64,000 bases of DNA from Isoetes taiwanensis (lineage: Eukaryota; Streptophyta; Lycopodiopsida; Isoetales; Isoetaceae), in assembly GCA_021234155.1 (NCBI GenBank), contig JAJEKV010000062.1:2825305-2889304 (forward strand). The letters are read 5' to 3'. The position numbers were made by a program, and so were the translations under genes. How positions within the stretch are numbered: position 1 is the first letter of the stretch; each line of letters opens with the position of its first letter. Positions 34,503 through 64,000 of this stretch are shown piece after piece. Under the pieces are notes generated by a model. That model was not told the DNA's origin. It was given only the letters and a program-made list of their open reading frames with translations, and did not search any database.

Positions 34503-34624
<122 letters not shown>

Positions 34625-35655: not shown

Positions 35656-35659
35656 TGTA

Positions 35660-40560: not shown

Positions 40561-40562
40561 AT

Positions 40563-41030
40563 AATAGTCACAAACCATTAATCACAAATCATTAACACAC
40601 AACTAACATTATTAACACAAACCATTGCATTGACATATTTTAACTTAAAATCCCCTTAAACCCCCTTTGGTTTGCATATTCACACCTGGGGTTACTTCCA
40701 GCAATGAGTCATTTGATAGAGCATTTGCCCTATTCCAAGTCAGACTGGACATATAGCGATCCTCGTTTGTGGGGGTATGCATGTACAAGTTTTGATAATC
40801 TGTATATTAAAGTTTGCAAAAATACTATAAGGTTTGAGAATGTAATTAATGGTGTTAATTTTTGTACATGTATTAAATTTTGAGGCTCACCCTCTAATGT
40901 GAACCCCTCTGTGAATATGCACCCAAACCAAAGGGGTTTAAGGGGATTTAATTTAAATGTGTCAAAAATAAATGCCTTTGTGTAATAATGTTAGCTGTGT
41001 GTTAACGGTTTGTGTTAACTAAAATTTTTG
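40563..41030. mobile_element. Foldback (long-TIR) element, copy A
   Basis: Long inverted arms of about 140 bp (about 40565-40706 and 40890-41025) carry AACATTATTAACACAAACCA, CCTTAAACCCCCTTTGG and their complements around a central segment of about 185 bp. There is no coding capacity. Its central segment is in the opposite orientation to the one in copy B at 63.45-63.93 kb, while the flanks outside the arms are in the same orientation. Confidence 0.8.
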
Positions 41031-41034
41031 GCCC

Positions 41035-41318
41035 CTTAGGCCTTAAGGATGGTGTAGGGTGTAGATATAGATACTATTTAATCATCGAATGATAGATGGC
41101 ATATCATTGCCTCACAAATCTAACAAACTAGAGGTGCCTCAAATTATGGAAACGAAAACATTGCATGAATTGTGACATATAATATTATACTAATACCAAT
41201 GTTAATACATGGTGTAGCAATGTGAATAATAGAATTTATTCATAATGAAATGTTTAAACTCTCGCTTTTTCCTCGGGTTGCATACCATGGTACCGGAATT
41301 TCGAGAATCATAAATGTA
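41035..41318. other. Spacer before copy B
   Basis: AT-rich, no gene. The first part (to about 41090) matches the last bases of the window, so it belongs to the duplicated unit. The remainder has no partner in view. Confidence 0.6.
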
Positions 41319-42485
41319 TTGCTCAAGGAAGAAAAGGAGGAACACAACATCAAACGTAGCTTCTTCATATTGAATCTATAAAATAAATTCATCTTTTCCG
41401 CGAGACTTGAAATACATGAAGTTAATTATCAAAGAAAAAACAAAACCAATGTAGGTAATTTCTTTTAAAACAAACATCTGATGGACAAGCTCATACATGG
41501 ATAGCTGCAAAAGCATAATACTTCCATCGTGATACAATAATCAAAATAGAAGGTCAAGAAGCATAACAGCCAAGCCAAATGCAATGTTAATTATATTCCT
41601 GTCCTTTGCAAAAGCCCTACATCATCTGCATCCAGTAAATAAGCTTTGGCCTTTTATCAAAACAAAAACGATGTTACCGCTTTCAAGCACTTTGCAAAGC
41701 CAAAGCAACGCTAAAACTAAAATGGTAGATCCAAGTTGCCGCTATCTGCAGCAAAGGCAACGGTTGATATCCTTCAGTTCTGTACAACTAATCGCTTTGT
41801 GTTCCATCCTTAACAAACATGTTAGGGCAGCTGCACGGACATAGGAACGCTGGATCAACCTCAATATATGTAAAAAGCAGATCAACCTGCAATATACCTC
41901 ACAACTCAGATTTCTTATTCCCAGGCAAGCAGCTGCATGAAAGAAAAGTAAAAGGCATACCGAAGTCAGCCTGTAGCCGAACGAACTTTTCTTTAAAAGC
42001 ACCAGAATATAGAATATAGGAAAAACCTAAATATAAAGCCTATCCTTAAAGACTTTCCCATCTTTGAATCATCAGATTCACCTGATTTCAGGTTCGTGGG
42101 TGCTTTGATAGCTAACAAAGGTGAGAGCCGTCAATGCCGCTTGTAACATACTCTTCTTGTTGGCAACTTCTAGCATTAGCCTCCCTTGTCTGAAAATAAA
42201 GCAGCAGTAATAAAATAGCAGCAAGACTGCATGAACGCGATTTTGCAAATAAAAAATAACCATAAAACCATTACTAAATAGGATATTTACTAAAAGCTTT
42301 GTTTCGGCCTTTGAAAATGTAAAAAGTAAAATATAAAAGAACCTTGCATCTTATTTATTAGCTAATAATGCTGCCTAATCCAACAATCTTACTTTCTGCT
42401 TGTTAGAGGTGAGTCCATCAGACATAAAAATAATCTAAAAATAACAGGTTTTAAATTCTGCTGCCCAAAGGCTTGACCAGATCTC

Positions 42486-43164
42486 CTATACCAGCAACAT
42501 GAAGATTGCCAGAATGGACAAAGTTGACATTTTCAAAAACTTCATCATAACCAATATCCTGTTCTTGTGAAAGCATTTAGCCAACATGTTTGCTAGCAAT
42601 TCCATCTGCATTATAACCATCCTTCTTTCTGTCAAATTGCTCTCTAAACACCTTACAAAAAAACAATGTCTGAGCAATAACTTTTTCACCTACATTCCCA
42701 ACAAATATGCTTTAGCTTCTGCTGCAAATCTGAAAGAACCATGACTTCTGATAGAGTTGAATAAAACAACTCAACAAAAGAAACCCACGGATCTGAACAA
42801 ATCTGAGAAGACTTTCGGCTAAATCTTGAAGAGTAACAAGCAAAGACGTTGCAAAATTGTTTTGAAAAATTGAAACCACTGGATGTTAAATATGCCAGAG
42901 AGTTGTCAAATTTGGCAAATTTGCTCTTCAAGAAAACCAAAATCCTCATGCACAAAATCAAAACTGGCAGACTAGAAGATCTTTTACCTTCGATAAATTC
43001 AACCTGATTTCCTCTAAAGACAACAAGCTGAAAAGCCCAAACAAATCCCTTGATTTTGTACATAATTCATGTTCCAGATCCATAGGCCGGTCCCTAAACT
43101 TTTTTCCAGCCAGACATTGGATGAAGAACTTCCAAAACATGGTTAATTCTTCATCTGGCCTCAA
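42486..43164 (-). pseudogene. Coding-like segments in INTS7 intron 3, copy B
   Basis: Near-identical counterpart of 19946-20618, with the same unrecognised peptides (for example FWKFFIQCLAGKKFRDRPMD and RRMVIMQMELLANMLAKCF). A few single-base differences shift frames relative to copy A. Family unknown. Confidence 0.35.
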
Positions 43165-43169
43165 TTGCC

Positions 43170-43367
43170 TTTTTTTGCATTCTAAATTGTGTATCTATCA
43201 AGTCCTTCGTATATGTTGGACTTCTCCAGCTGACATGGCAGACCGCTCATTCTACTGCAGTATAGGACTGTAGTATAGTTAGCTGTACTGTTATATGGCA
43301 CTTTGTACCTTTCTCTTTTCTGTCCTGTGAATAAAGGCAATCTGCAGTTTTTTTGTGCATTCTAAAT
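43170..43367. mobile_element. Small retro-type insertion, copy B
   Basis: Identical to the insertion at 20624-20821, including both halves of the putative target-site duplication. Confidence 0.5.
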
Positions 43368-45158
43368 AAATCTTAGCATCTAATGAAACCAATAATGTTG
43401 CATTTTTAAGCCCTACCCACCTAACCCTTTTTAACAACTAAATTATATTCACACAGAATCAAGAAGCAACTAGAGTATTGTCAACCCTAGAACATTTGTT
43501 TATAATTAAATTTAGTAGCAGCCAAAAACTTCCTTGGACTGGAACTACGGAAGCCTAATACAGTGTTCATCAATGAGTTACTTCTATACTTACAGCTGTA
43601 CCTCTTGAGCTTGTGTAGCAAGCAATGAAGAAACTCCCATCTTGGCAAGAAGGCATTATAGCTCAAATTTCAGCTTTCGGTGGTGTCCTCATAAAATTTA
43701 TCATTTCTGTTAACTTTTCAGTGCCAAAGCAGCAAATGCTGCTATTCTTTCACTGAAAGTTGAAACGGCAAAGAAGGCTGCCTCCACCTGTACGAAAAAA
43801 ATCATATAAAGCTATCAGGAAGCATTCTGAGCACAATACTCTGGTGGTTAAAACAGACGTGAAATCTTTGTAAGAGCAACTGATGTAAAACATTGACTGT
43901 ATCCCCCCTCCTATTAAAGAGTAAACCAAAGATTAGAATGGAAAAAATCCCCTATTATAAACCATTATTTGTATCATACTTTCTGTTTATGACCCCAAGA
44001 TCATAAAGCTGCGGCTTTATCTTGATACACAATGAAAGTTACATTAGCAAATTTGGAAGTTACAAAATAAACAGCATAAACTCACAGCAGTTTGATGTTG
44101 AATTACTGTGAATGTTCTCTTGCGTCATTGTGCAGTTCCAATTGAAGAAAAGTGATTGCTATAGTGTCTATACACCCAAAAACACCAGGTTGCATTTTCT
44201 GGGCTCCTAACAGGATTTCTACCCTTCATGATATGGATTTATTGCAATGCAATATGCAAATCTTCCAATTCTAAATTGTTTCCAGCATACTTCCTAGTTT
44301 CCGTATTCCTCCCACCAGCCTCATGCAGGTTTTATCATATTTCAGGCTGATTCCATCAAAAAATTTATTCCTAAGGCTTCAATTTGTTGTGGTTGTATGT
44401 TATTTTATCATCATAGTTTTGTAGACGGGTTTCCCACATGTTTTCCACAATGCCCAGTCGTAATTGTGACATTAAAAAAATATACCTCCTGCCTGTGAGC
44501 AGACTCAAGGGCTTCCAAAATTAGTCGGTGTACATCGTAGTCATCTGCTGCAATATTTGCCAAACACCCAATGGCACGTAATGCGAGTGCTCTTGCTATC
44601 ACATCTCCACTGTCCATAACGCTCTTAATCCTCCTCAACATCTCCATATAACTTGGTATTCTATTCTTGCTAAGTAGTCCTTCAGAAGAAGCCTGTTCTT
44701 CCTTATTCACCAAAAGCAGAACCTTCAAAATGAAAGTCCTTGTGAAATTATTTCCACCCTTAAAGGCATCAGCAAGGCGCAGCATTATTGCATTAGCCAA
44801 GGCCTGGTCTTGTCCAGCTTCCAGCTTGAAAAGGGCAGCAACAGAAGCTGAGACAGGAGGTTCAAGGTTCCATTGGACAAGGCGGGGACCCAGTTTCATG
44901 ATTTCTTCCCATTGAGCACCTGCATGGATTTTGTTTTCAAGAGATGCTGGGCAAGGTGAACGACTTTCTGCAGTTCATTTACCTGGTTTAGAAGAACGCA
45001 GACCACGATCCAAGTCCAAGTTCCATGCACGCGCCTTGTTGGCGGCTATTTCTTCCATGCCGGATCCTCCAGTTTCGAATTTGAACATAGTTTTATTCAA
45101 AAGAAACCAAATAGAACTGAGATAGTGTACCCCTACGGACAATGGTGATGAGAATCTT

Positions 45159-45373
45159 AACATCTCAAACGTCTATGATCTATGACCTCGTGAAAGTACG
45201 ATCCTCGTGAAAGTATGATCCCAGCATAACATCGGTATTAAAGCCGTGCTGAGTATCACATGTAGCAACTTATCACATGTAGCAACTCGTCAGGCGTGAC
45301 CAACTCAGTATAGCGCACCCAGATTTGATCATATGTCGGACAGCTCTGGAGGGTATAGCATTCATCCTCAATG
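45159..45373 (-). mobile_element. LINE 3'-end fragment, copy B
   Basis: Same fragment as at 22612-22826, with the finger-like GAIEDECYTLQSCP on the minus strand. Confidence 0.6.
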
Positions 45374-45539
45374 GCTCCCATGGAATACGTTGTCATAGTC
45401 TGCAAAACTTGCATTAACGGAGCAAGCAGTAATTGCATAGGTGGAATTGAACGACTAACCAAGTTCACAATGTGGTCAGGAACTAGTTTGGAACTCATGC
45501 TTTGGAATGAAGGTATCTTTCGGCATTAGAATAACACCA

Positions 45540-47680
45540 CCATGTCGAGGAAAAACCATTTACCTTGTACTTTATGAGGCCTTATGATCTATATACTTTT
45601 TACAAATGGGCTTAGACAATTATATAAGCAATGGTTAAGGAATAAGGTTGGCAAATTATCTCTTACTATAATTTTGTTAATGGTTTAGCGGAAAATAAGG
45701 GTTAGGGTTTTGTTGGAATTTTTTTGGACCTTTGGGTAATTTTGTAAATTGGTGGCGGTCAGGTCCAGAGCATGGTGGGCGGTGGAGTTGGGCCACATGA
45801 GGCGATCTTGCCTTGGAGATGAGGCGATCTGGCTGATGAGGCGATGATGCGCCCCGCGACCGTTGTTTCGGTTTTCGAGGGAAGATCGGCCTTCTTCAAT
45901 TGTATTTCATCTAGAGGGCTTAAGTCATGGAGGAGGCGGCTTACGCCTTGGCTTGGCCGAAAGCAGGAGGCTCACGGAGGTCGATTTACGCATAAAGCTT
46001 GGCTTCACCGGAGTTTGGATGCATCTTTGGGTTTCTAGCTATGGCTACTCGGTTTCCGGCTATGGCTATGGTTTTCGAGGGATTGTTCTTGGCGATGGGG
46101 CTTAGGATAGACCACGACTCTACAAGATAAAGGCGTAATCTGCTGGGTGGAGATAAGCGGGGGCTGCCTCATGTGTTCGCAGTTCTTCTTCGACCAAATT
46201 TGAGAACCTACTTTGTTGAGTTTTTGTTGTTCAAGCATGTAAAATTTCTGCTGAAATTGCAGTGCTATTTGTGCTATGGCACGTTCTCAATAGATGCCAC
46301 CTCTTCACTTTAAGTTCTTATATGTTCTTCACTCTTCTTTGTTCTTATGTGTCTTTTGTGAATGCAATGGTGTTAGTGCATTTTTATGTGTATAGATTGA
46401 AGTATACCATGTATGTATATCTCTAATATATAATTGTAATATGGAGGGTTAGGGGGCGACTTAGGGGCCGCGATATTGTTAATTTTTTGCTTAGAGTTGG
46501 GCGGTGTAAAGTTCTAAAATACTAAGTGAGGGAGTGAACGTTTGAGGCTTGGCAATTTGGGAGTAATGATTTTTTGAAACTTCTAGAAGGGCCGGGTTTG
46601 AGGTCCGGCGGAGGTTACGAAAGAGCTAAGGCCGTTCGGAAGGAAGCTGGGGCGTTGTCAGAAAGCATCTGGAAGGGCCCGGCATAGTATAAAAACGAGA
46701 GGCGAAAAGTCCGAACCAGTTGGAGAGATAGGAAGATTGTCAACGGGCCGAATGTGAGTGGTTTGGAGGATTGGGTTGGAGAAGTCTATCGGACTTGGCG
46801 TGGAGTAATTGAAGCTTTTGTTGTTTGTGGGCATCGTAATTGTGTGTTTTGAGAAAGCCTATGGTGCCGGAGTGCAATTCAGAGACTCACATCTTGGATG
46901 AGCGGCTAATTTCATTCGCTTGCATTTTCTTTGCGACTTCTCGGGTTTTTTTCCCGATTTGTGGTTATGAGATACTCTTACGACTTTGCGCCCATCAGGC
47001 CGGATTCGAGCGACGGAGGAATTGTAGAGGAGTGAAGATGTGGTTTCCAGTAATTTGGATGGAATCTTAATGATTTTTTAGGATCTGTAGCTATTAGTTC
47101 TAGGATTTGCAATCGTGGCGTCTGGGTTGCTGGTCTTGGGCATGACAAAATAATTTAATGTAATGGTTTGTTTGATTTTGTTTGCTACAAGCATAAAATA
47201 ATTTAATGTTTTGTTCGGTTTGATTTGATAGATTATGTGTTAGTTATGTAAAAGATACGTGACAATCGAGCATGATTAAAGGGTATGCATGTGCTTAAGC
47301 ATCTGAATCCATGCATTGTTTTCTGTTCAAATATCTTCGCTAAGCAAATGAAGACAAATTGAAAACATGATCATGAAGAACAGAGAGATAAGCATAAGAA
47401 AAGAGTTTTGCACCCACCGGCTTATCCCCCCCCCCATCATCACGGATCTGGTTTTCTGACCAACTCTCGCAAGAAACCTTAAATGAAGATATGAAGACTA
47501 CGCAATTTCCTACTTCTTTGTCAAACGATTCAATTTTATTTAACATTACAAAGCATTTTTCTTGAATTGTTGTGCGGAAATCGATTTAAAAATAACTACT
47601 GGCCCTTATAATTTTCACGAGAATGCAATCTCAGGATAACGAAAACCTATCATCTGGTAAGAAAGTAAGTAAAACTACTT
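45540..47680. other. Non-coding, copy B of 23.0-25.1 kb
   Basis: No gene. It differs from copy A at many CTG/CAG positions: for example GGACAGGTG becomes GGGCGGTG, and CTTTGCAGCTTCTCTGGG becomes CTTTGCGACTTCTCGGG. This block is the clearest display of the site-linked discordance. Confidence 0.5.
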
Positions 47681-47682
47681 AC

Positions 47683-47800
47683 CTCTAGAACCCATATAGC
47701 CCTTTTCCATGAGCTCCGAAGCATTCGCATAACATGCTACAGTAGTGGCGCTAGTTGTCCAAAAGCAAACACTTGGTATGTGAAAAGCATTGGCAACATC
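47683..47800 (-). pseudogene. UGT exon fragment, copy B
   Basis: Same 118-nt glycosyltransferase exon as at 25168-25285, identical inside. The adjoining acceptor CAG of copy A reads CGT here, another difference at a CAG/CTG site. Confidence 0.55.
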
Positions 47801-47975
47801 ACGAGCAACAAGAAACAAGCGGATATTTTGCCATCAAACCCTTAACCGGCTTACGCATTCCTATCGGACATTAACGCACTTTCAAATTTATCACAATAAG
47901 GTATTCTATTTCCATAATATTGCACTCTTGGATTTCTTTCCCATATCTTTATACAATCTTACGCGTTTATACGAC

Positions 47976-48516
47976 TGTGAACTTCAATAATGCGAGCACA
48001 GTATAACCTACATCAACCCAGACCAAACTATGTGGTATCAAGCTTGCACTTCATGCAACAAGAAGGCAATAGAAAAAGACTCACACTTCTGGTGCGAAAC
48101 ATGTCACATGAACACCGAAACATCAAAGAGGTATTCCTAAACAACTTATATATCACTACAATTACACATATTAACTTCATTACCTCCTTTGGAACATTGC
48201 CAGATACATTATTCAAGCAAAATTAATAGATTCGACTGCAGAGGCTTGGGTATCGATCTTCAACGAACAAGCTGAGCAAATATTTGGTCATACTGCTGAC
48301 GAGATGTCCATCATTCGAACCACAGACCAAACGACATACCAAAAAAAAATTCAACAACCACTATGGGCTCCTCGAATCTTCCATCTCCTCGTGATGCACA
48401 CTGAGTACATGAACACACAGAGACAAAAGATTACAGTTCAAGAAATCAATCCCATAGATTGGTCAACAGAATGCAAAACTTTACTAGACAAAATAGCAAA
48501 TTTGAAATCGTGCTAG
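47976..48516 (+). pseudogene. RPA70-like 3' exons, copy B
   Basis: Same two-exon DBD-C fragment as at 25461-26001. Exon 2 (48204-48516) is identical. The beginning of exon 1 is altered near 47965-48000. The zinc ribbon cysteines are intact. Confidence 0.7.
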
Positions 48517-49104
48517 ATCTCTGATAAACATGTACTCCATTCCAATTTCCTTTAATACTACAATAATTTTAGAATCAAAATCATTCCACTCGCATTCACT
48601 TAAATTCCTTGACTTCTGAGATATTATCAAACCAAACCTGACTGCGGCGGCGAATGCTGCCGCGACAAATTCTTGTACGTATAATAGCTGTATGGTGTGT
48701 GCAAGCTTATACGTGGTCTGATGTGGAAATTGCACAGCCCTTGATTTGGCATATTCATGAAACTATACTTGGATCCAATGATCCAAATAAAACAATAAGG
48801 ATAGTGCAATAAGGATATTCATGAATTATGCATGATGATAGAGCATTTTACCTTGTCAAATATCACAAAGAAGGACAAAGAATTTTCTTAAAAAAACTAA
48901 AAATAGTGCCCCGTGTTGCTGGAGATAAGCTGAGAATTTGTAAATCACACATTATAGCAATAAGAGAAGAGAGCATTAATAATCCAAAAGTACTCCATTA
49001 TTAAAGCACTTCAACCATTTTTCTCTTCCCTTTTTCCCTTTCCTTTTCCAATCAATCTCCAGATACGTTAAAAATTCTATCTATCAATCTTTTGCTCTTC
49101 TCTG
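48517..49104. other. Non-coding, GC hairpin, copy B
   Basis: Copy of 26002-26590, including the GCGGCGGC...GCCGCGACAAATTC hairpin near 48642. No gene. Confidence 0.45.
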
Positions 49105-49585
49105 TTTTGTAGCTATTGCATCAATTCGCACGGGGTCCCACAGGCTACGGATTGAGACGGGTAGATGGGAGCGGCTGCAATTGCCGCGAGAAGCGAGACT
49201 ATGTGCCTGTTGCCAGTTACAGGTTATTGAAGATGAAAGCCATACTCTTCTGAGTTGCCCTGCTTTTGAGATAGTCCGGAATCATTTTTTGACCTTAGCA
49301 TTCCATTCCACGCTTCCACAACTTCTCAGAGCACCATCTGTGCATGACTTGGCATTATACATACTTGAGGTTCTAGATAAACGTCTGCAATTACTGAGCC
49401 CTCAGTAGTCATTATCTCTGCTTGTCTAGTATCATCATTACTGCAAAGGTTTTTCCCTTGAAAACCTTTCGAGGCAGGGTTTTTTAATCCTAGTAGTAAT
49501 GATTGTACTAGCCCATTGTATGGGTCCCATGACCTATTGGTCTCCGTGGACGTTAAAAAATTTATTCTATTCTATTCTATTCTTT
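49105..49585 (+). mobile_element. LINE 3'-end fragment, copy B
   Basis: Same as 26590-27066: C-terminal CCHC-like finger frame ending at 49406, then the CGTGGACGTTAAAAA tail and TTCTA repeats. Confidence 0.8.
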
Positions 49586-50625
49586 CGTTTTCCCCTTTCC
49601 CTTGCCCTTTTCCTTTTCTCCAACCATTTTACTTTCCCCCTTCCCTTATTCCCCACCCTTTCCCCCCTCTCCCCTTCCCCCCCCTTTTTTTTTGAAGGAC
49701 GACAATTTACTATCAAGGAATATCAAGATACATACAAGGGGCCTGTGACATGGGACTCAAAACCTAGAGGACGAGATAGTCCACTAAGCAAAACCATCCA
49801 TACACAGTATATAATCATACTCATTTTGCCACCTTGAGACGTTTAATGGCCTCACAATCAACATGTTCTGCAACATCGAGATGATCATCAATAGACATCA
49901 AGTTATCATGCCACTGAATAGTACGAGGCAGGATAGCCTCATAAGATGGCATAACAGACTTCTTCCTTCCTTGCTGCCTTCTTCCAATTGACCTGTTGTC
50001 ATGACTCTTTAGCGCACTGAAGATTAGGACCGTCACCCATAATAATCTCAGAAGCATGAGAAGCAGAAGCAACAACGTGGAGAGTAGTAGGAATTATAGC
50101 TACAGCTGATGGTGCTAAGGACGACACCATGGAAACTCTTCCCTTCTCTTTTTTTTTTTTTTTTCCTCTCCCTTTTCCCTTCTTCCATTTTTTCCTCCCC
50201 TTTTCCTTTTTCCCTTTCACTTTTCCCTTTACCATTTTCCCATTCCCCGTTGTTTTGTCTTCCCTTTCATCTTTTCCCTTTTTTACTGTCGGATTGAGTG
50301 AATCTCACTCAGCGGCCTTTTTCTTTTTCCTTTTACTCTTCCTTGCTTTTTTTTTTTCCTTTTTTTGGTTTTTCTATTTTCCACTTCCATCTTTCCATTT
50401 CCCATTTCCCATTTTTCATTATCCCTCTTCTCTGCAATAAAAATCATTCTTTCTTTCTCTCCTGGACATTAAAACTGTATCTATCTATCTACTATCTATC
50501 TCTTTTAATTTCCTCTTTTTTCCCCTCCTTTTTCCTGTTTTTCTCTTTCCTCCTTGCCCCCTCTCTTTTCTCTGTTTCCCTTTCGCTTTTTCCTCTCTCC
50601 TTGTCCCTTCACCATTTTGATTCTC
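49580..50625 (+). repeat. Pyrimidine tracts, copy B
   Basis: Copy of 27060-28110, with homopolymer-length differences. The minus-strand frames between the tracts (49821-50235) are the unassigned coding-looking segment. Confidence 0.7.
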
Positions 50626-50814
50626 AGATTGAGTGAATATAGGCCATCAAATGGAAGCAAGCAACGAAGAGACACATGCTTCATCTTTATCGTTAGTCGA
50701 TCAAATCCTCACTAGGCAAGATCCAAATCCAACACTTACACTATAATTTTATAATATAAGAAGATAAGTAGGCTATCAGACCAAAAAAACAAAAAAACAT
50801 GTTTTGCTAAACCA

Positions 50815-50970
50815 AATACGCTTGGATTTTTTATTCTAGTGGTAACACACTAATCCTAGAGCATGTAGATTTGGAGTTCAAGATAAGCCAAAAGTCGCAC
50901 TATATATAGATCATTACCCAAAGCCTAATGTACGCCTTCCATGGACGTTAAAATAATATCTATCTATATC
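50815..50970 (+). mobile_element. tRNA-derived SINE, copy B
   Basis: Same SINE as at 28305-28455, with A-box TTCTAGTGGTAAC and tail TGGACGTTAAAATAATATCT. Confidence 0.6.
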
Positions 50971-51270
50971 AACTGCACTACTTAATCATAATATAACAAA
51001 ATCTATACGGGACCAAAGCCTCATGGACGTTAAAATAATATCTATCTATATCAACTGCACTACTTCATCATAATATAACAAAATCTATACGGGACCAAAG
51101 CCTGATGTACAGTTCCCATGGACGTTAAAATAATATCTATCTATATCAACTGCACTACTTAATCATAATATAACAAAATCAAGCCTGATGTACAGTTCCC
51201 ATGGACGTTAAAATAATATTTATCTATATCAACTGCACTACTTAATCATAATATAACAAAATCTATACGG
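50929..51270 (+). repeat. Four-fold tandem repeat of SINE tail plus flank
   Basis: A unit of about 80-90 bp (AAAGCCT...CCATGGACGTTAAAATAAT, ATCTATC, then CTGCACTACTTAATCATAAT) occurs four times here and once in copy A (about 28400-28490). This accounts for most of the growth in offset between the two large copies. Confidence 0.9.
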
Positions 51271-51274
51271 GACT

Positions 51275-51995
51275 TACGGGGTTTTCTATGATGGCATATA
51301 GCATATAACATATATATTGTCATCGTGAAAATATGGGACTTTCTGTGACGCCATAGATCACATAATTCATATATACAGAGACACTATCATGTAGGATATT
51401 CAAACCTAGACCATTTAATTGTAAGCATTAGTTTTTGCCCTATATCTTTATGACTACGAACTCATATGTATTGTGATGTCAATATACCAGATGAATGGCA
51501 TAGTAGATAGCATACATGCATTGAATCTCGAATTAGGGCTCGCATGAAACATGCAAAAGCTCTCGACATTTGCAAGCTACCCACAAAAAATGAAAAAACA
51601 CAGGGAATATCTAGTTATATCAGTTGGACCCCAAAAGAATTCTACAGATGCCAGTTAAGTGTACCTGCCGAGAGCTTGTGACCGAGATTAAAAAACCCCG
51701 CCCTTTTGGGGTTTCGGGGAAAAACCCTAGTGATAAGCCCTCGGTAAAGGGCTTTGACACAACGTAAGGCAGCAAAAAGACGCTCCCACAAAAAAACCCA
51801 AAAAGCCTAAAGAAGACGAAATCGTGCATCCCATTGTACCTCCGCATCAATGAACTAGAGCACAAAGATAAGAAAATAACAACCTCGAAAAGCGAGGGAT
51901 TGGTCACGCGTGCCACACGACAAAAAAACATGTACGATAATATACAAAATTAAGGGAGGATGGGTGGGAGTCAAGGGAACTATTGAGAGATGAGA
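51275..51995. other. Non-coding, copy B of 28.5-29.2 kb
   Basis: No gene seen. It contains the AAGCCCT/AGGGCTT stem-loop near 51735. Confidence 0.4.
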
Positions 51996-51999
51996 AAAT

Positions 52000-52849: not shown

Positions 52850-54023
52850 CAGGTCGAGTATGCTCATTCCACAATTTATGTGGATGTCATGCAATGCCTG
52901 CAAGATCCTTTGAGCTTTCTGGACTTGCGAAATGTTCTTCCTCTCTTCCTCATCCCTTGAGATCCCATAACGTCTACAATCAAGAGCAAGCTTATCCCAA
53001 AGCCCTGGTCTGTGCCAGAGCCACCTAGAACAAAGAGAGTCTATGATTAACAATTACGGTGCCATTAGTCATGAGTAACGAAGAAAAGGATGCAGAATTC
53101 AAAATAGATTGGAGAGCATTCATTCCATATAGCTGCATCTAATCACACAAAGAAGCATACAAACGGACTCATCAATGGGACAAACAGTGCCTTTCTAGAC
53201 TCGCGAGTCGAGAAAGCCGCCTAAAAGTAAATATACAAGTATTTTCATTACAGAATATAGTACAATTGTTCACGTTTCTTTCAAAACTTCACATAATTTT
53301 GCTATCTAAAACCAGAGGTCACTGATCTTGATCACTATAATATTTCTGGTCCATAGCCCTCATGATCACCCTGCTCTCCAGATCAACCTGCTTGAGGTTC
53401 GGATAGTTCCTAATCACATCGGCCACAAGAATGGAAAACAGAGATTCTGCCAACACTGGAACGAGATTGTAAGACAACCACTTATCTGTTTTGATGCTCT
53501 TCTGGTCGATAACTCTTTGCAATGATTTTGTATTGTCCGGGTTATGATAGCACTTGTAGGCGGAGTTGTCTATGATCAGCGTGTTGTGTTTGTTAAAATC
53601 CTGGTATGCTTCATAAACTCTCTCCAGCTTTTTCACCATAATAGGCTTCCCCTTCGTGATGGCCAGATCGAAGTCTGACACATGCTCAACCCTTTCGTTT
53701 TCCCAAACAAACTTGAACTTCAAAACGAGCAGGCCGAATACACCAAGGACATTGACAACATTTTTCTTTGCCATACAAGATCATATGGCCACTTCGAATC
53801 CCCGATCCAGGCACCATTGAATAATCTCTTTTGCTTGAGGCTGAGGATAGACGGTCTTAGACCCTGCCTTTGTCGGCTTCTGTGCGGTGTTAAGCTCAGG
53901 GACATCACCATCGTGGTATATTGTAGCCAAAACTCCATTGACGTCAAAAATTACAAGTTTGGTGGGCCCGTTTGGATTCCAGTTATCGTTTGGCTCTGAC
54001 CAGATTTCTTGATCGTGATCCAA
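52850..54023 (-). CDS. FCP1-type HAD phosphatase-like, tandem unit 2
   Basis: HAD/FCP1-like enzymes dephosphorylate phosphoproteins using an Asp nucleophile. Minus strand: 53781-54023 encodes KLVIFDVNGVLATIYHDGDV; 53319-53774 encodes VVNVLGVFGLLVLKFKFVWE, KGKPIMVKKLERVYEAYQDF and NTLIIDNSAYKCYHNPDNT. This matches the plant HAD group with the pattern LDLNGLL...IWSS...LLFCWD...NTxLLDDSPYK. The second motif-I Asp is Asn (DVN), as I recall is common in that group, and motif III reads DN instead of DD, so activity is doubtful. A TGA sits where the IWS tryptophan is expected; copies A and the second unit agree, so it is probably real. A C-terminal exon (about 52850-53024, RPGLWDKLALDCRRYG) follows a CTAG acceptor. 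Likely a decaying duplicate, or an exon set of one longer gene. Confidence 0.6.
53191..53216. repeat. Palindrome in intron, copy 1
   Basis: GACTCGCGAGTC core with CTTTCT/AGAAAG outer arms, lying between the HAD unit 2 stop and its C-terminal exon. Confidence 0.8.
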
Positions 54024-54289
54024 AGCCGAGATCCTTATTCCTTCAGGTCCTTTCTCGCTGGCCCACTATCTTTTACTGGACTATCTTTTTTGGATGCAGT
54101 GTCCTCCTGTGCCGTTGAATTGCCAGCAAATCCCTGTGATCGTGACAATGATCCTGATTGATTTCGCTCGATGTCTCTGGAATGATGAAGACCATCAGTT
54201 ACAAAAGGTTCTCGACTCACGAATCAAGAAAGGATTCATGCGAGAAATTGGAAAAACGTTAAGACTTTGAGGGTTTCTCGCCGGGTCGA

Positions 54290-55457
54290 GTATGCTCGTT
54301 CCACAACCGGGTCGAGTATGCTCGTTCCACAACCTATGTGGATGTCATGCAATGCTTGCAAGATCCTTTGAGCTTTCTGGACTTGCAAAATGTCCTTCCT
54401 CTCTTCCTCATCCCTTGAAGTCCCATAGCGTCTACAATCAAGAGCAAGCTTATCCCAAAGCCCTGGTCTGTGCCAGAGCCACCTAGAACAAATAGAGTCT
54501 ATGATTAACAATTACGGTGCCATTAGTCATGAGTAACGAAGAAAAGGATGCAGAATTCAAAATAGATTGGAGAGCATTCATTCCATACAGCTGCATCTAA
54601 TCACACAAAGAGGCATACAAACGACTCATCAATGGGACAATCTCGACTCGCGAGTCGAGGAAGCCCCTAGAAAGTCAATATACAAGTATTTTTATTACAT
54701 AATATAGTACAATTGTTCACGTTTCTTTCAAAACTTCACATAATTTTGCTATTTAAAATCAGAGGTCACTGATCTTGATCACCATAATATTTCTGGTCCA
54801 TAGCCCTCATGATCGCCCTGCTCTCCGGATCAACCTGCTTGAGGTTCGGATAGTTCCTAATCACATCGGCCACAAGAATGGAAAACAGGGATTCTGCCAA
54901 CACTGGAACGAGATTGTAAGACAACCACTTATCTCTTTTGTGCTCTTCTGGTCGATAACTCTTTGCAATGATTGTATTGTCCGGGTTATGATAGCACGTG
55001 TAGGCGGAGTTGTCTATGATCAGCGTGTTGTGTTCGTTAAAATCCTGGTATGCTTCATAAACTCTTTCCATCTTTTTCACCATAATAGGCTTCCCCTTCG
55101 TGATGGCTGGATCGAAGTCTGACACATGCTCGACCCTTTCTTTTTCCCAAACGAACTTGAATTTCAAAACGAGCAGCCAAGGACATTGACAACATTTTTC
55201 TTTGCCATACAAGATCATATGGCCACTTCGAATCCCCGATCCAGGCACCATTAAATAATCTCTTTTGCTTGAGGCTGAGGATAGACAGTCTTAGACCCTG
55301 CCTTTGTCAGTTTCTGTATGGTGTTAAGCTCAAGGACATCATCATCGTGGTATATTGCAGCCAAAACTCCATTGACGTCAAAAATTACAAGTTTGTTGGG
55401 CTCGTTTGGATTCCAGTTATCGTTTGGCTCTGACCAGATTTCTTGGTCGGGATTCAA
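54290..55457 (-). CDS. FCP1-type HAD phosphatase-like, tandem unit 1
   Basis: First of two tandem units about 1.43 kb apart. 55251-55457 encodes NKLVIFDVNGVLAAIYHDDD; 54766-55250 encodes KFKFVWEKERVEHVSDFD, KGKPIMVKKMERVYEAYQDF, NTLIIDNSAYTCYHNPDNT and ESLFSILVADVIRNYPNLKQ, ending MDQKYYGDQDQ. The same DVN and IDN substitutions occur as in unit 2. A C-terminal exon follows (about 54300-54482, LALDCRRYGTSRDEEERKDI), after TTGTTCTAG. Units 1 and 2 share intron sequence as well as exons, so the duplication was at DNA level. With the N-terminal exon at 55740-56100 they may form one transcript. Confidence 0.6.
54642..54659. repeat. Perfect 18-bp palindrome in intron, copy 2
   Basis: CTCGACTCGCGAGTCGAG, between HAD unit 1 and its C-terminal exon. 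Confidence 0.9.
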
Positions 55458-55685
55458 AGCCGGGATCCTTGTTCTTTCAGGTCCTTTCTCGCTGGCCCAC
55501 TATCTTTTACTGGACTATCTTTTTTGAATGCAGTGTCCTCCTGTGCAGTTGAATTGCCAGCAGATCCCTGTGATCGTGACAATAATCCTGATTGATTTCG
55601 CTCAATGTCTCTGGAATGATGAAGACCATCAGTTACGAAAGGAGGTTCTCAACTATGCGAGAAATTGGAAAAACGTTAAGACTTT

Positions 55686-55719
55686 GAGGGTTTCTCGACT
55701 CGCGAGTCGAGAAACCCTC
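55686..55719. repeat. Perfect 34-bp palindrome in intron, copy 3
   Basis: Arms of 17 bp centred between 55702 and 55703, outer arm GAGGGTTTCTCG, core ACTCGCGAGT. It lies in the intron between the N-terminal exon and HAD unit 1. The copy A counterpart (about 32886-32918) is degraded. Confidence 0.95.
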
Positions 55720-55739
55720 GGAAAGAAAAATAAACTCAC

Positions 55740-56100
55740 CTCAGTCGAAGATTCTCCAATATTTGTTCCGTTGTGAGTTCGCCTAAATCTTTAACATGTG
55801 AGGGTTGACCTTGGCTGTCATCTTTATCTCCGTCATCTTCGTCCTTACTACTTTCAACAAACAGTCTTCCTGTCTTGAAAATGGTAATGAAGCAGATCTA
55901 AGTATGACGTAATGGTCTCAACCAGATCCTTGTTCCCAACCACAGATATTGGTTTTATTCCATAGAGCATAGCCCCTTGAGAAAATAGGCCATTCATATC
56001 CACTCGCATACAATCTGATCTCCCTCGACCAAGCTTGTAATGAAATGATAACTCTCGGTCGGATAGGAATTCTATGTATTGGACCTGTCGCACCATACAT
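55740..56100 (-). CDS. N-terminal exon of the HAD cluster gene
   Basis: The minus strand begins MYGATGPIHRIPI and includes KVDMNGLFSQG-type and DLVETITSYLDLLHYHFQDR segments. It ends in an acidic stretch (SSKDEDDGDKDDSQGQPSHV) and LTTEQILENLRLR before a GTGAGT donor at 55738. I recognise no domain. Its frame shifts once or twice along the exon, and copy A has a longer open version (32878-33303), so indel errors are likely in both. Its position suggests it is the 5' exon of the HAD units downstream. Confidence 0.5.
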
Positions 56101-56499
56101 AGAACCTGCTGCCCTTCTAGGGTTCCATATGCTCCTGAGAAATCACAGACTTATAGGCATAGTGGTGCTAGAAGCGACCACCACTTGTCCAAATGCGATA
56201 CGACCTTGAAACCAGAACCAAAATTCGTTGGCAAAACTTGGTGCCTTTAGCGAGCCAAGTCTACGCGTATTCGGCTTCATTACGTGGAATACACTAGTTG
56301 GTCATATTGAGACACATCTTATATCCTTTGCTCAATGTCGGCTTTTCATAAAATAGGGTGCGTCAACCCGATCATATTCATAGCAAATATGGGTGCCAGC
56401 AGCCAGCGCTAGCTCAGAGACCACTTTAGATCCTTGTGACCCAAGGTTACCAAGAAGGGAGGGGAGCTATCGTCCGTCTTAAACTGCTGAGAGAGGAGA

Positions 56500-56660
56500 A
56501 AAAGTCGATTAGAAGTCGACGGAAAACCTAATAGTGATCCCCAAATGAACTAGGGCACCAGAAAATGCATGCAATGCATGCATGCATGGGAGAGATGCAT
56601 GCTCGCCCTATTCGAGAATATCGATCCGATGGCTCGGATCGATGGCATTATGCACATATG
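56500..56660 (+). repeat. Flanking direct repeat with hairpin, copy B right
   Basis: Partner of 52000-52145, with ATGCATGCAATGCATGCATG and the CGATCCGA/TCGGATCG stem; the stem is perfect here. Confidence 0.75.
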
Positions 56661-56709
56661 ATGACAATCATGCACAATACATCATACGTGTATGACAACT
56701 GGCATAATG

Positions 56710-57295
56710 GAAATTATTTCCACCCTTAAAGGCGTAGCATGATTACATTAGCCAAGGTCTAGTCTTGTCCAGCTTCCAACTTGAAACGGGCAGCAACCGA
56801 AGCTGAGACATGAGGTTCAAGGGTCCATTGGGATGACGCGAGGACCTGGTTTTATAGTTTCTTCCCATTAAGCACCTGCATTGATTTTGTTTTCTAAAAC
56901 AAGAAATGTCGGGCAAGGAGAAACGATATTTGGAATTCACTTACTTGGTTTAGAAGAACACGGACTACCATCCAAATCCAAGCTCCATGCACGTCCCTTG
57001 TTGGCGACTATATCTTCCATGCCAGATCTGCCAGATTTAATAGTTTTATCTAAAGAAACGAAATACAACTAAGATATTATACCCCTATCACAATGATGAT
57101 GAGAATTGAATCCTTAAGAGAAGGAATGCGTTGTAATAGTTTGTAAAAACTACATCTAATAAAGCAAACAGTAATTGCATAGATGGCAATTGCTAATCAA
57201 GTTGATAACATTGTTCAAAAACTAGTTTGGAACTCATGCTCCATTAAATTTAAAGCTAAGGTATCTTTAGGCATTAAAATAACACCACTATATAA
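56710..57295 (-). pseudogene. Old INTS7 5'-end copy, second instance
   Basis: Counterpart of 33913-34490, matching INTS7 exon 1, intron 1 and the start of exon 2, and clearly more diverged than 44.5-45.1 kb. It also lacks the LINE fragment. Confidence 0.8.
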
Positions 57296-57301
57296 GCAAT
57301 C

Positions 57302-57429
<128 letters not shown>

Positions 57430-58450
57430 TTAACATCCACAGGAATCCAAACAGGTTATGAGATGGGTACATGCAAATGACAAGAGCCCAAATGAGCTTG
57501 GGGACTAAGCCCCATCACCATAGATAAAAACATTAGTAAAATAACAAAATATAAAGCAGAAAGGGCAGGGCTACCCATAATTGGCCCATGGATTAGAGGG
57601 CCACTAACCCCGGATAATAGCCCCGCCTCCATGATAAACTGCCTATTTCTTTTCTCACGAGCTTCTCGCACCTGACATAGTTCCTTCTTTCGTCTATAAA
57701 GTTGTACCATGATACAATACATGGAGTCTAGATGTGACATCCCTGAAATGCATAAGGAGGTGCAAGGGACGATCATGTTGTAAAGCATGGTTTCGTTAAT
57801 TAGAGAGAATAATGCGATTTTGAGAATTTCGACCTTAGCTAATCTAGTCAAGCAAGAATATTTTCTCCTACTTCTAAAGCACGAGTATTGATACATACAC
57901 CACTATTATTGATAGTAGATACATACACCATTATTATTGATAGTAGACATATACGCCACTATTATTGATAGTAGATACATACATCATTATTATTCGTGGA
58001 TATAAATATATCCGCACTTGAGTGAAGGAGGCATTCATTTATAATGTCTCGGCACTCAGGATCTGCTATCGATAGAGCATGGTTGCCTGCCCCTGCTACC
58101 GATATCGAGACCATCACTTGCTCCATGACTTACAATGATCTGGTTAAATGCATTCATAGAGGCATTCAGCTTGATCCATACTTGCAGTCCATAGCTAATC
58201 GCCGCCAGATGGATTCCCTCGGTTACCACCATGTTGTTATTCATCTTGTATGGCTTCATGAGCGCAACTCCTACGAGATTAATTCCATATGCCTGCATGG
58301 TCACGACGAGTAACTGTTGTGATGTAACTGTGCTTTAGGTGTATGTATCACCTATTCAGCAATATATAATGTAGTGATGTTCTGGCATATAAGATATAGT
58401 AATGTATAAGAGCACTTGTATTAATCTAGAGAGTAATAACTACTTTAATG
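57430..58450. other. Non-coding with short repeats, copy B
   Basis: Copy of 34.6-35.65 kb, with the repeat TATTATTGATAGTAGA near 57905-57975. A plus-strand open frame at 58044-58313 is unassigned. Confidence 0.4.
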
Positions 58451-58462
58451 TACCTTGAAGAT

Positions 58463-61269
58463 TCAAGTTTCTTCTCCGTCCTCTGAGGCCTCTTTGGCCA
58501 GTAATTTCTGTAACTGAGCTGCTACACTTGCAAGTATCACTACCATCTGAGGCTTGTCCTTGACTGACCAACCATAGTCTATGGTTTTGAGATGCTGATA
58601 ACGAGGCCTGTCATTCGGATTTGGCCTCCACCTTTGATGCCAGCAGTCCCTATACTGTTGTGCATAAGTGGTACCTTTTCTTGCTTCGGCTCCCACCAAG
58701 ATACAAACACCTCTTCATAGTGGGGAAGAGTTGGGTCTTGTACAGGGTCCTCTTCAGCAAAGGCCATTCATGCAGGAGATGAGTATCCTGGTCTAATGAG
58801 CAAGAGCATACCTTTCTTGACATCCTGGTATGGGTCGTATGTTTCAACTGGGTTCTGTGGTTTATTCTTTGCAGGGCCGACATAGTGCGGATGTGTTGTG
58901 TACTCGTCGAGCATTACTGACTCCGGCTCCATTAGCACGGACTGTCTAGTGAGAGGCCAGAAGTCTCTAATTTCTTGGGTCTCGGGTGGGACCTGTCCAA
59001 GTGCATGCATCAGAGTCGACCACCTCATTCATGTAGGATTATACCATGAGTTCACACCACCATGAGATATGTTTGCCCAATGCATCATGTACTTCGCAAT
59101 GGACGATCGTAAGGCACCCATATCTTTGAGGCTATCATATGGCTTCACAGCCTTAGGTGCTCCAGTAGGCATTATTGTCATACCATCAACACCTGCCTTC
59201 CACATTCTTATTCCATTGTCAGGGAACCATTCTCGATGCCTTAGCCTCATCTTGTAATACATGAGGGCCAACCATCTTTCATGCAAAATTTGAAGAGCGG
59301 AGGCTCCAGGTGTCCAGCCAAGCGATCCTTCTTGTCTGGAATGTATCCGTTCACAAATGACTTCCAATCAGGAACCTCAGTGACTACGTACGACGCCGGT
59401 GCTTATAGTGCATCAATGTCATCATGGGTGTGGCCGACCATCATGAATCCAAGCTGTATCTGATCAAAAATCCCGAGCCAGACAAGATAAGAAAGGTAGG
59501 AGAAGAGATATATGTCCTTGTTCTGGCCAGAGCAATTGTCTAGTTGTAAATATAGCCTTCTGAGTAGGTGTTTGGGATGAAAGGGAGCACTAGGAGAGGC
59601 CATAAATTCTTGTCCAGTGTTATTGATCTTCTTAGTCCTCAATGCCATGGTGTTGAGGACTGCTGCTCCCCATGCACAATCAGAGCGCTCAACTTCTCTT
59701 AAATGGCCCCAGTTGTCTCTCGAAGCATCCTCCAGGGTTTTGAGTATGTGGTTCAAGGAACCAATATGAAAATTAGAATCATCCTTCCATAAATCTAGTG
59801 AAAAATGGCCCAGAGCGCCAATACCATGGCCATGCATCAGTGCACCAGTCACACTTACTTTCAAGCGTTCTCCTCTCCACACTGATTTGGCTAACTTCTC
59901 CAATCTAGGTACCATTGTCTTGTTCCGATCCATCTTATCATGAATGATCATCAGAGCTTGCTCAGGAGCACGATGCGATAAAGCTCTCCACAACCAACAC
60001 AGGCTCTTACAAGAAATCTGGGCTGTCATGTGTACCTTTCCTTTGATCTGCAATTCTCTTCTCTCTATTGGATCTCTCATCTTAGCCATTTTCTCTTTTA
60101 TTACAATACAACTATTGCACTTGGAGAAAGCTATCCTCTTCGCAATTGCAACCTCTGGGTGGTGTAACTTCCACTCGCCTAAGAATGAAGATGGGGAGAT
60201 GTGCTTGTCTGTCATCTCCATAACACTGGCATCCACCTCATGAAGAATGTCCTTCTTTGTTAGGATAGAAGGGAGCCTCTTCACATTCGCTCTCACACCT
60301 TCATTAGTGATTTTTGACCTGTGGAGCATCGTCTCTGCATTCTCATCTATGTACATAGACAGTAGGGCATTTCCTGCTAGAGTGTGCGACCTTGGTTTCT
60401 TTGAGCCCGTATTACCATGTTCAGCAACTCTATGACCAGCAAGGAAAAGTTTACGCCACTTATAGAAAGTTGACATTAGAATGTCGTAAGCTTTATGCCA
60501 TGCTTTCAAGCATACTTGCTTGTTATTTAGCATCACCTTCCGGACCTGCCCATTTTCTGAGCAAAGGTCAAGCATGTTGTAAGCAAAGGTGGTCCTGTCC
60601 GCAGCACTCATGTTCCAAAAGAAACTTCGCATGCACATGATCTCGCAGGTGGAGAAAGTGGCACAGCATCTACGAATGCAGCAAATTGTGGATTTGAAGT
60701 CTAGAATAGAAGCCGCAGTGATCTTCTTATCAACTTACATGGGGTGACAGGTGTTCGCGGTGTTCGATTCACCATTCTATAAGACCTCTTTCGAGTCTTA
60801 GCAACTTCCACTTGCATTGCATAGGGTTCTGCCTCGATATTCTGTTATTTCAAGGCCTTTATGAGATTCGATACTGTGATATTGTCTCATTGGATCACCT
60901 GACCAAGTCGTGCAGTTGCGGCATTTCAGCACCAGCTTAGCATCTCATAGGCAGCTTCTCTGGCATAGGACATATCTTCATCACGGTGGCAGCCACGAAG
61001 TCTTCCTCTAATCTTATGTCACCAACTGCCTGGTTAGGATCAGTGAAGATGATCACCCCGTGTGCATAAGGCATATAGCAGCAGTCATCCATCAGCATGC
61101 AGTTCCTCTCCACCAGCTCATCTCTTGAAATGCCTTTATCACCACGGGTTTGCTTGAATGGACCTTTCTCGTCTTCGACTACCTGCCAGGTAATTTTTTT
61201 TAACTGCGCTGGCGGAGTTGATATGTCACCTTCGGGCGCAAGCGACGCTATACAACGTGCAAGCCACAA
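58463..61269 (-). CDS. DUF7869-like protein, possible DDE-type transposase
   Basis: The core is an open frame of 411 residues (59403-60638, minus). Its C-terminal third has YLQLDNCSGQNKDIYLFSYL, then VWLGIFDQIQLGFMMVGHTH and DDIDAL. From memory this is the signature of the DUF7869 family (DNxxGxNKN...GxLxxxGHTHxDID), scattered in plants, oomycetes and animals. The spaced acids (D of IIHDKMD, LDN, HTHDDID) would suit an RNase H-like DDE fold; that is inference. Upstream, 60937-61269 encodes an open frame (ITWQVVEDEKGPFKQTRGDK) and downstream frames 59029-59367, 58768-59028 and 58463-58767 carry the C-terminal part, ending LLAKEASEDGEET. Frame changes between them may be introns or errors. A weaker copy lies at 35.66-38.5 kb. 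Confidence 0.55.
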
Positions 61270-61349
61270 AATGAAACTCCCGACCGACTCTCCGAGTGTT
61301 GAAATTTCGGTTCCAGATATGGCAAAGGTATGCTTTTGTCTATAATCTT

Positions 61350-63430
61350 ATCCATAGACACTACCACGGTGCCCCCGGGCAAGGGAAGTTGTGATGTTTG
61401 TTGAAGCCATATACTTTGCCCTCCCCGACTTTGACACCATTAAATAGTACGGACCTTGATTCAGGCATCTTGAATTAGACAAGGCTGATAGTGCTATTAG
61501 AAATCGCGGTGGCGATGATACGAAGCACTAAATGCTTGTTTGAGGAAAAAGTTGAACAGCAGGAAAAGCTAGTGCTGCTCAAGATCGCTGCCGCGATCTA
61601 GCTAAGGACTGAGAGGCTTGTACAAGTTTGCTCCAATGCTAAGACACGTTTGCTCCAATGCTAAGACATGTTTGCTCCAATGCTAAGATATAATTGTTGA
61701 AAGCTGATGAAGATCGCCGTCGCGATCTAGCTGAGGACCCGAGCAGCCCTGATCAAGCAATAGACATTAAATTAGTATCCATTTGCTTCATCATTAAATC
61801 AGTTTTCTCCAATATTTTATCAGTTTGCTCTAACATTAACTATTTATACTCCTTGACTGCTGATGAAGATTGCTGTCGCGTTCGGAATGCGGTTAGTGAT
61901 TTGAAGTTGTCCAGGGTTTGAAGCTGTGACAGGTTTGCCAGGGTGATAACTATGTTGTGAAATTCATTTCAGACAAGGACTACTTTACAGAGAATATAAT
62001 ATACAAATCTGGGCCTCTTCTGCTGTCTAACTCGTTCATTTGATATAACAGAAGTTAAAATGGTATAGGTGTCCTATAATTTAATTAAAACAAAGTTTTA
62101 ATAGTATATCTGCCCGATTCCACTCTTCACAGCATGCAGGAGTCGAAACACCAGGAAAATGTCTTCAAATATTCAGGATCGCCTTCCATTTCCAGATGAG
62201 CACCTCAAATGCCTCCAATTTAGACGATCGCCTTCGAAGACCTATTCAGCGCCTTAAAAGCCTCCTTCCCGAGTCCAATTTGAATGAATGGCTGGCGTGG
62301 CCATGTAGCTGGGTGAATTGAGTTTGAATTTCAAATCCAGATAATTTTGGCGGGGCTTTTCCATTGTCACTGTCTCATTTAAACTCGCGTGTCGTGAGTA
62401 ATATGTTGTCCTGCAACCCGTCCCATGCGTACTGCGAGTGTCATTGTCTCATTTAAACTCGCATGCCGTGACTATTTTGTTCTCCTTTCCCGGGTCCCAT
62501 GGTACAGAATTTTGAACTTAGTGGTGGCGTCCGTGCAGAGAATAAAAACGTTGATTCTGGCATTTTTAAGAATATTCTGGATCCGCCACCAGAATTTATT
62601 GCGCCCTCGGTATTTATTGTGCCCGCGGAATTTATTGCACCGCCGGAAATTAATTTTCTGACCATCATTGTGACGGGCCATTAATGACCCCCATTCTATA
62701 AATTCACGAAAATCCCATATCTCGGCTCCTTCGCGATCCAATTCACGAGCGCCTACAGAATTTTTCGAGCGCCTTCGACCGCCGCCATATCTCGCTCAGC
62801 CGCCTTAAAAGAAGGTATTTTCCGCGCTTTTCACGACCATTGCTGTCGTTCTAGCATTAGTTGTCATGTTTTTAGCATGCTATATGCTCGATAGAATCGC
62901 GGCCGCGATGTTCACGAGCAGTATTTCTTTATTTTTACAGTCTTCATGCTTGTGAGAATCGGGATCGCGATTCTTTTCACCAATAAATACAGTATAGTTT
63001 AATGATATTGCTCACAACTATCGCGGGCACACTAGATAATACTTTTATCTCTACTTGCTATACAGATCGCGGCCACGATACTTAGCATTAGTGCGTATAT
63101 CGTATCTGTAATTTGCTCACAAGGATCGCGGACGCGATCCTTGCGAACATATTCTTGTTAATAATGTTTTTGTCTATCTACTTGTAAAGATCACGGCCGC
63201 GTTCCTTATGTGCACTTTGCCAGGTCTTTGAGTAGTGAGTGGTGTCACTTATCAGTTTCATATTCTACTTGCAGCACTGGAGCTTTTCTGCGGCCCCAAC
63301 GTGGATCCCATGTGCATTGTAACTCCTGATAGAAGTCGAAAATGCATGGAAATAGCTCAGGCCAAACCTCATGTGGCAGGAGACCGCCAGAAGGACTTGT
63401 GTCTCTTCTTGAGGAATGGAAAGGGCCCAA
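61350..63430. repeat. Palindrome-rich non-coding stretch
   Basis: No gene. At least seven short palindromes share an ATCGCGGNCGCGAT core: about 61577 and 61711 (AGATCGC/GCGATCT arms), 62896-62909 (perfect ATCGCGGCCGCGAT), 62957 (GAATCG/CGATTC), 63066, 63121-63142 (10-bp arms AAGGATCGCG/CGCGATCCTT, GA loop) and 63187. The flanks between them are AT-rich and unrelated. Confidence 0.75.
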
Positions 63431-63454
63431 AAGATTTTGAACAGTTTGGCATAA

Positions 63455-63935
63455 TAGTCACAAACCATTAACACAAATCATTAACACACAACTAACATTA
63501 TTAACACAAACCATTGCATTTGACATATTTAACTTAAAATCCCCCTTAAACCCCCTTTGGTTTGGGTGCATATTCACACGGGGGGTTACGTAGGGCAGCG
63601 AGAGCCTCAAAAAATTTATAATACATGTACAAAATTAACACCATTAAGTACATTCTCTCAAACCTTATAGTATTTTGCAAACTTTAATATACAGTATACA
63701 AAAACTTGTACATGCATACCCCACAAACGAGGATCGCTATGTACGGTCCAGATCTTGGAATAAAGGGCAAATATGCCTATCCGACAGCTCTCGTTGCCAG
63801 AAGTAACCCCCCCGTGTGAATATGCACCCAAACCAAAGGGGGTTTAAGGGGGATTTTAAGTTAAATATGTCAAATGCAATGGTTTGTGTTAATAATGTTA
63901 GTTGTGTGTTAATGGTTTGTGTTAACTAAAAAATT
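63455..63935. mobile_element. Foldback (long-TIR) element, copy B
   Basis: Arms at about 63460-63608 and 63785-63930 pair over about 140 bp with few mismatches (for example CCCTTTGGTTTGGGTGCATA against its complement). The central 180 bp has no gene and is inverted relative to copy A. A hairpin GGCCCCTTCGGGGCC follows at about 63940-63954. Confidence 0.9.
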
Positions 63936-64000
63936 TTTTGGCCCCTTCGGGGCCTTAAGGATGGTGTAGGGGTGTAGATATAGACATTATTTAATACTGT

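Follow-up and report, generated by a model that had tools for sequence, protein, structure and literature searches.

Background

Reversal of a DNA segment between inverted repeats belongs to a known class of mechanism, of which plastid small inversions, primate microinversions and template-switch loop inversions are examples. In the sections of PMC8794818 at hand, loop inversion is drawn as a product of template switching, and an inverted loop together with a compensatory change in the stem is named the strongest possible support for this mechanism, such joint cases being extremely rare. According to the available part of PMC8755829, switching at imperfect inverted repeats renders them perfect; the minimum homology for recombination in eukaryotes is given there as 50-250 bp, and the route that its authors prefer for many of the short cases is microhomology-mediated break-induced replication. 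Here we describe a foldback element that occurs as two copies, A and B, in a stretch of 64,000 nucleotides from Isoetes taiwanensis (contig JAJEKV010000062.1, hereafter the window), and whose core has opposite orientations in the two copies.

Orientation of the core

The copies lie in a segment of about 22.5 kb that is present twice in tandem (self-BLAST). The units and the parts of the element are listed below.

18799..41323, plus strand: tandem unit 1 (self-BLAST, unit alignment and junction), with foldback copy A near its right end
41324..64000, plus strand, continuing past the window end: tandem unit 2 (self-BLAST and unit alignment), carrying foldback copy B
40569..41018, plus strand: foldback copy A, bounded by the left-only CACAAACCATTAA and the TTAA on the right
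40578..40581, no strand: left-tip TTAA of A, a possible but unproven target-site duplication with 41015-41018
40583..40706, plus strand: AL, left arm of A (arm comparisons)
40707..40896, edges approximate, plus strand: core of A, taken as the reference orientation (alignment)
40897..41016, minus strand: AR, right arm of A, the divergent arm (arm comparisons)
63459..63925, plus strand: foldback copy B, with TTAA at 63468-63471 and 63922-63925
63472..63605, plus strand: BL, left arm of B, apparently left-type at tip and middle and right-type towards the core
63606..63788, edges approximate, minus strand: core of B, reverse-complemented relative to A (alignment)
63789..63922, minus strand: BR, right arm of B, apparently right-type at the outer tip and mostly left-type in the remainder

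Both copies occupy a shared site, and the core is flipped between them. An earlier note on this stretch had reported a reversed core between flanks of unchanged orientation, and both BLAST and local alignment scores confirm it. A full-length match of A to B exists on opposite strands only (40578-41018 against 63925-63468, minus strand, 84.7% identity over 472 columns; 84.0% over 468 in a second BLAST), whereas the sequences to the left (28404-40695 against 51181-63589, 88.9% identity in self-BLAST) and to the right (40904-41082 against 63808-63995) align on the plus strand. When the core is compared separately (40728-40885 against 63615-63772), the reverse complement scores 216 and the direct comparison 20, with a mean of 19.9 and a maximum of 29 for 200 shuffles. 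The flanks behave in the opposite way, scoring 707 direct and 25 reverse on the left, 80 direct and 16 reverse on the right. The core motif quoted in the earlier note (17/18 letters, at most 2 mismatches) has two matches in the window, at 40773-40789 on the plus strand and at 63705-63721 on the minus strand, against an average of 0.03 for the same 17-letter motif in shuffles. Chance likeness of the cores is ruled out by this motif count and by the shuffle scores. What is found is a segment reversed in place between inverted repeats with co-linear flanks, which is what characterizes a hairpin-associated loop inversion. No other segment is inverted between the units (minus-strand BLAST, E up to 0.001).

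The units may be tandem paralogues, or two alleles that were put end to end by the assembler; under either reading two related copies have their cores in opposite orientations. Outside the element their likeness is uneven, with 96.1% identity between 18799-28496 and 41324-51013 (self-BLAST) and the lower value given above for the part that adjoins the left side of the element. Unit 2 has a sharp left edge: likeness to unit 1 begins at 18799/41324.

Structure of the element

With arms of about 120-134 bp around a core of about 183-190 bp, the element has long terminal inverted repeats as in a foldback transposable element or a miniature inverted-repeat transposable element (MITE). The arms do not form the perfect inverted repeat that had been proposed earlier: those of B are 95.7% alike over 139 columns (self-BLAST) and those of A 81.6% over 114 columns (80.7% in a second BLAST run). 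Folded as single-stranded DNA, B reaches -168.1 kcal/mol in a nearly perfect fold (mean of 100 shuffles -46.2; z -24.9), and A folds less well at -89.2 kcal/mol (shuffle mean -43.0; z -10.5).

At the left tip both copies carry an extra CACAAACCATTAA before CACAAATCATT (in A with one more T in between), and the right tip of both copies, reading inwards, has AG followed by TTAACACAAACC. The tips also differ by one base, T on the left and C on the right, in CACAAA[T/C]C. Because these left-only and right-only sequences are the same in both copies, the tips suggest a single shared insertion that predates the separation of the two units. The outer arms had been said to keep the same orientation, which can be verified at the outermost tip only, where left and right differ (CACAAACCATTAA and T/C); elsewhere it is not readable. 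TTAA is present at both tips of both copies, yet TTAACACAAA also recurs inside the arms, so it is at most a possible target-site duplication.

Neither copy is overlapped by a reading frame of at least 150 amino acids, and self-BLAST, minus-strand BLAST and the motif scan reveal no further copies of the element in the window. Searches with a 29-base exact pattern in viral_contigs and a 24-base exact pattern in genome_contigs both gave 0 matches, and blastn of copy B against plasmids gave none; as these collections are not meant for plants, absence from them says little. Directly to the right of B (63940-63954) GGCCCCTTCGGGGCC forms a short perfect hairpin, and the sequence to the right of A (41030-41042) reads GGCCCCTTAGGCC.

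Comparison of the arms

The arm sequences are suggestive of a mosaic, in which the outer tips stayed on their sides, the inner arms moved with the core and BR is mostly left-type. The inner arm of AL scores higher with BR (58) than with BL (40), and that of AR higher with BL (66) than with BR (43); such a swap of sides is expected if the core turned together with its borders. In the middle of the arms BL and BR are identical except for trimmed ends. Here AL differs from BL by 0 substitutions and 4 one-base gaps. Between AR and BR the 71 columns compared hold 4 substitutions and 8 gap events, and no column is near CG/CHG. Away from CG/CHG the background difference between the units is 2.81% (28401-40560) or 6.05% (36000-40560), which predicts 2.0-4.3 differences in those 71 columns. 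The tip markers hold their side and the inner arms swap, which places the breakpoints inside the repeats, at a resolution limited by noise and by the small number of markers.

We aligned all four arms, which gave 67 diagnostic columns (134 cells), and fitted four models. Two switch points explain 76 of the 134 cells, a value reached in 1 of 300 column-order shuffles. A single reciprocal crossover (63 cells) and a flip of the whole element (57) fit less well, the best model having one free point more than the single crossover, and absence of any flip explains 50. The tied best solutions with two switch points run from (91, 17) to (138, 18): BL changes from left-type to right-type within columns 91-138, and BR from right-type to left-type at 17-18.

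Proposed history of the element

Overall, the two copies are probably explained by one shared insertion followed by one loop inversion through the inverted arms. A foldback (MITE-like) insertion would have been in place before the 22.5-kb segment became two copies. In one lineage, that of copy B judging by the arm pattern, DNA synthesis or repair would then have switched from the left arm to its inverted counterpart on the right, so that the core was copied in reverse and after it the complement of the left arm, until a return jump close to the right arm's outer tip. The outcome would be a turned core and a right arm replaced by left-arm sequence. Reciprocal crossover of the paired arms, with a conversion tract, would lead to the same product, and the two routes are not separable from the sequence. 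Inversion by recombination between the arms, as put forward in the earlier note, is thus part of the preferred interpretation, towards which the arm mosaic leans, though a template switch with two jumps fits equally. We infer that the mechanism was by jumps, that A is the older state and B the turned one, and that the event took place once; the direction depends on AR being truly divergent. The lengths of the arms are within the 50-250 bp range quoted in PMC8755829, and the perfecting of repeats described in the available part of that paper would fit the near-perfect arms of B.

A number of observations weigh against this history. Two copies yield one inferred event only, and the highest of the six inner-arm scores is that between BL and BR (67). 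At several columns (e.g. 102-105) it is AL that stands out among the arms instead of AR, and over the whole arm the contrast is weaker (5 substitutions and 14 gap bases for AL-BL, 8 and 24 for AR-BR). The middle-arm stretch was picked after the alignment had been viewed, and one of the 8 gap events between AR and BR is close to a trimmed end. The diagnostic columns are not independent, many of them stemming from gap placement, and with an extra free point relative to a single crossover the two-switch model fits just 76 of 134 cells. Copy A is in the noisier unit, so base-calling error may account for some of the differences between the arms, and perhaps for AR as such. Finally, loop inversions with a stem change, of which PMC8794818 counts 6 cases, are not enriched over simulation in the sections at hand.

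Reliability of the sequence and assembly error

The main rival explanation is an assembler error: there would be one true core orientation, and the core of one copy would have been placed backwards at the inverted repeat during contig or consensus building. The window is indeed error-rich and its quality patchy. In the kb that starts at 25799 all 1000 columns match between the units, against 797 (kb from 38799) and 795 (kb from 39799) beside copy A. A frame of 443 amino acids with a DUF7869 match is open in unit 2 (59403-60734, minus strand), whereas its counterpart in unit 1 (about 36615-37858, minus strand) is found only as pieces in three frames with 35-51% identity. By these comparisons the surroundings of A make unit 1 the poorer copy. 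In addition, the near-perfect arms of B are a hard case for assemblers.

The nature of the errors points in the other direction. Differences between the units (18799-41082 against 41324-63995, excluding the foldback and counting CG or CHG in either unit) bunch in garbled patches at CG/CHG, with long identical runs between them. CG or CHG is contained in 94% of the 120 patches with 4-9 differences (length-matched clean sequence 39% for one sequence, 63% as the bound for two), in 84% of the 114 patches with 2-3 differences (clean 22%, bound 39%) and in 61% of the 107 single differences (clean 16%, bound 30%). The class of patches with at least 10 differences (n=65) says little, its value of 98% being close to the two-sequence bound (93%). 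The difference rate near CG/CHG is 18.3% in 28401-40560 and 6.9% in 18799-28400, against 2.8% and 1.6% elsewhere in the same regions. This looks like methylation-linked miscalls in long reads, for example from nanopore basecalling of methylated cytosines, a presumed origin. Methylation differences likely reduce basecalling accuracy according to PMC9749173, in the available part of which CHG is not mentioned. True deamination could account for part of the pattern (47 transitions and 14 transversions among 61 isolated substitutions). The garbled patches may even serve as a crude methylation map.

Long reads, as suggested by the garbled indel patches, would be able to span the 470-bp element. Furthermore, the arms of A are only about 81% alike and would anchor its core if the divergence is real, and the minus-strand BLAST described above gave no further segment inverted between the units. 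These points weaken the idea that an assembler took the wrong path through a perfect repeat, which the earlier note had held out as an alternative, and we consider an artefact possible but unlikely.

Base-calling noise is ruled out as cause of the flip itself, since local patches at CG/CHG cannot reverse about 180 bp. Noise does blur the arm comparison, and it may be the source of the divergence of AR. Nonetheless, only 8 of the 185 larger patches lack CG/CHG, as does the middle of AR, which makes us lean to true divergence there.

Recurrent flipping and movement of the whole element

It was also suggested earlier that the element may be a flip-flop site. In that case the core would turn repeatedly, and cells or individuals would differ in its orientation at one and the same locus, perhaps to some functional effect. 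The arms of B are nearly perfect over some 134-139 bp, inside the minimum homology range of PMC8755829, and plastid hairpin loops reorient repeatedly as described in the consulted part of PMC6824564. The locus itself offers no support: two copies represent one inferred event, and the six frames of the window taken into the Pfam scan include no recombinase, the rest of the window being outside that scan. Recurrent flipping is improbable. Equally improbable is its more specific form, in which the near-perfect arms would make a nuclear core turn repeatedly with no recombinase of its own, the arms being re-homogenised at each turn and neighbours as well as individuals differing in orientation.

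Elements of the piggyBac type prefer TTAA as target. Precise excision and reinsertion of the whole element, which TTAA at both tips would permit in the seamless piggyBac manner, or two separate insertions of opposite orientation into one TTAA site, are very unlikely given that the left-right differences of the tips stayed put (T/C at column 16 and the left-only CACAAACCATTAA in both copies, with T/C as the sole counting tip marker if the element begins at TTAA), that a whole-element flip fits 57 of 134 cells against 76, and that no transposase is among the six Pfam-scanned frames.

Other features of the window

Judged from its gene content, the window is plant nuclear DNA. Three matches in the Pfam scan belong to models of Integrator subunit 7.

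15783..16364, minus strand: INTS7_C_plants match (Pfam on frames)
16340..18535, minus strand: INTS7_HB match (Pfam on frames)
44411..44974, minus strand: INTS7_N match, unit 2 frame (Pfam on frames)

The INTS7 N-terminal frame is common to both units (21958-22428 and 44411-44974, both on the minus strand; Pfam was run on the unit 2 frame only), and unit 2 seems to carry the 5' part of an INTS7 gene without the C-terminal frames present to the left of unit 1. Of 7995 scored protein candidates 2 match the INTS7 frame, the better one, from Spirodela intermedia, at 22% identity; the DUF7869 frame has 7 matches among 3353 candidates, at 30-44% identity. Rfam gave 0 matches at gathering scores and ARAGORN 0 tRNA genes in the window.

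Several repeats accompany the duplication. The left edge of unit 1 falls within a diverged tandem repeat (about 237 bp; 18563-19004), at whose second copy the duplication begins. Each unit has two copies of a 1.35-kb direct repeat (30069-31407, 31518-32832, 52849-54217 and 54307-55654; 84-94% alike), and the frame at 53319-53780 in the unit 2 repeat region has no Pfam match. Unit 2 further contains an 82-bp repeat of about 4 copies (50940-51273), the corresponding kb having 266 gap bases between the units, and a perfect palindrome of 34 bp lies at 55686-55719. An uninterrupted ATAG microsatellite is present once per unit (34506-34624 with 29.8 copies; 57303-57429 with 31.8 copies).

Comparison with known systems

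If true, the locus represents a large nuclear loop inversion that went together with arm homogenisation. Such a case would point to a way in which foldback elements retain near-identical arms while the orientation of their core changes, and it would caution against using the internal orientation to tell how such an element was inserted. The practical value is limited pending confirmation by reads. Among the titles and abstract openings that were searched no turned MITE core was found, which is no proof of absence.

The following likenesses and differences are drawn from the parts of the cited papers at hand. In the hairpin template-switch loop inversion of MIR633 in the baboon lineage (PMC8794818) the loop is, like here, reversed in place within its stem, and a single switch can mend stem mismatches simultaneously, as may have happened in the present element. 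The inverted loops in rRNA genes in the same paper are typically 4 nt, some 7-8 nt, whereas here a transposon-like element has a core of about 183-190 bp between arms of 120-134 bp. Plastid small inversions (PMC6824564, PMC12928735) share the hairpin loop that occurs in either orientation between relatives, but PMC12928735 cites sizes of 5-50 bp for them and of 11-24 bp for their repeats, far below those of this nuclear case. All 59 reported human-chimpanzee microinversions (PMC8755829) have flanking inverted repeats, as has the core described here, though with segments of 17-33 nt and repeats of 3-75 nt per flank they are much shorter. The foldback-like transposon Galileo (PMC3573991) has long inverted arms, one of which is copied over the other as proposed here; it is a Drosophila relative of the P-element with a transposase, and arm extension rather than a turned core is described for it. 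The less usual aspects of the present locus are its size, its setting in a nuclear foldback and a footprint that loop and arms share.

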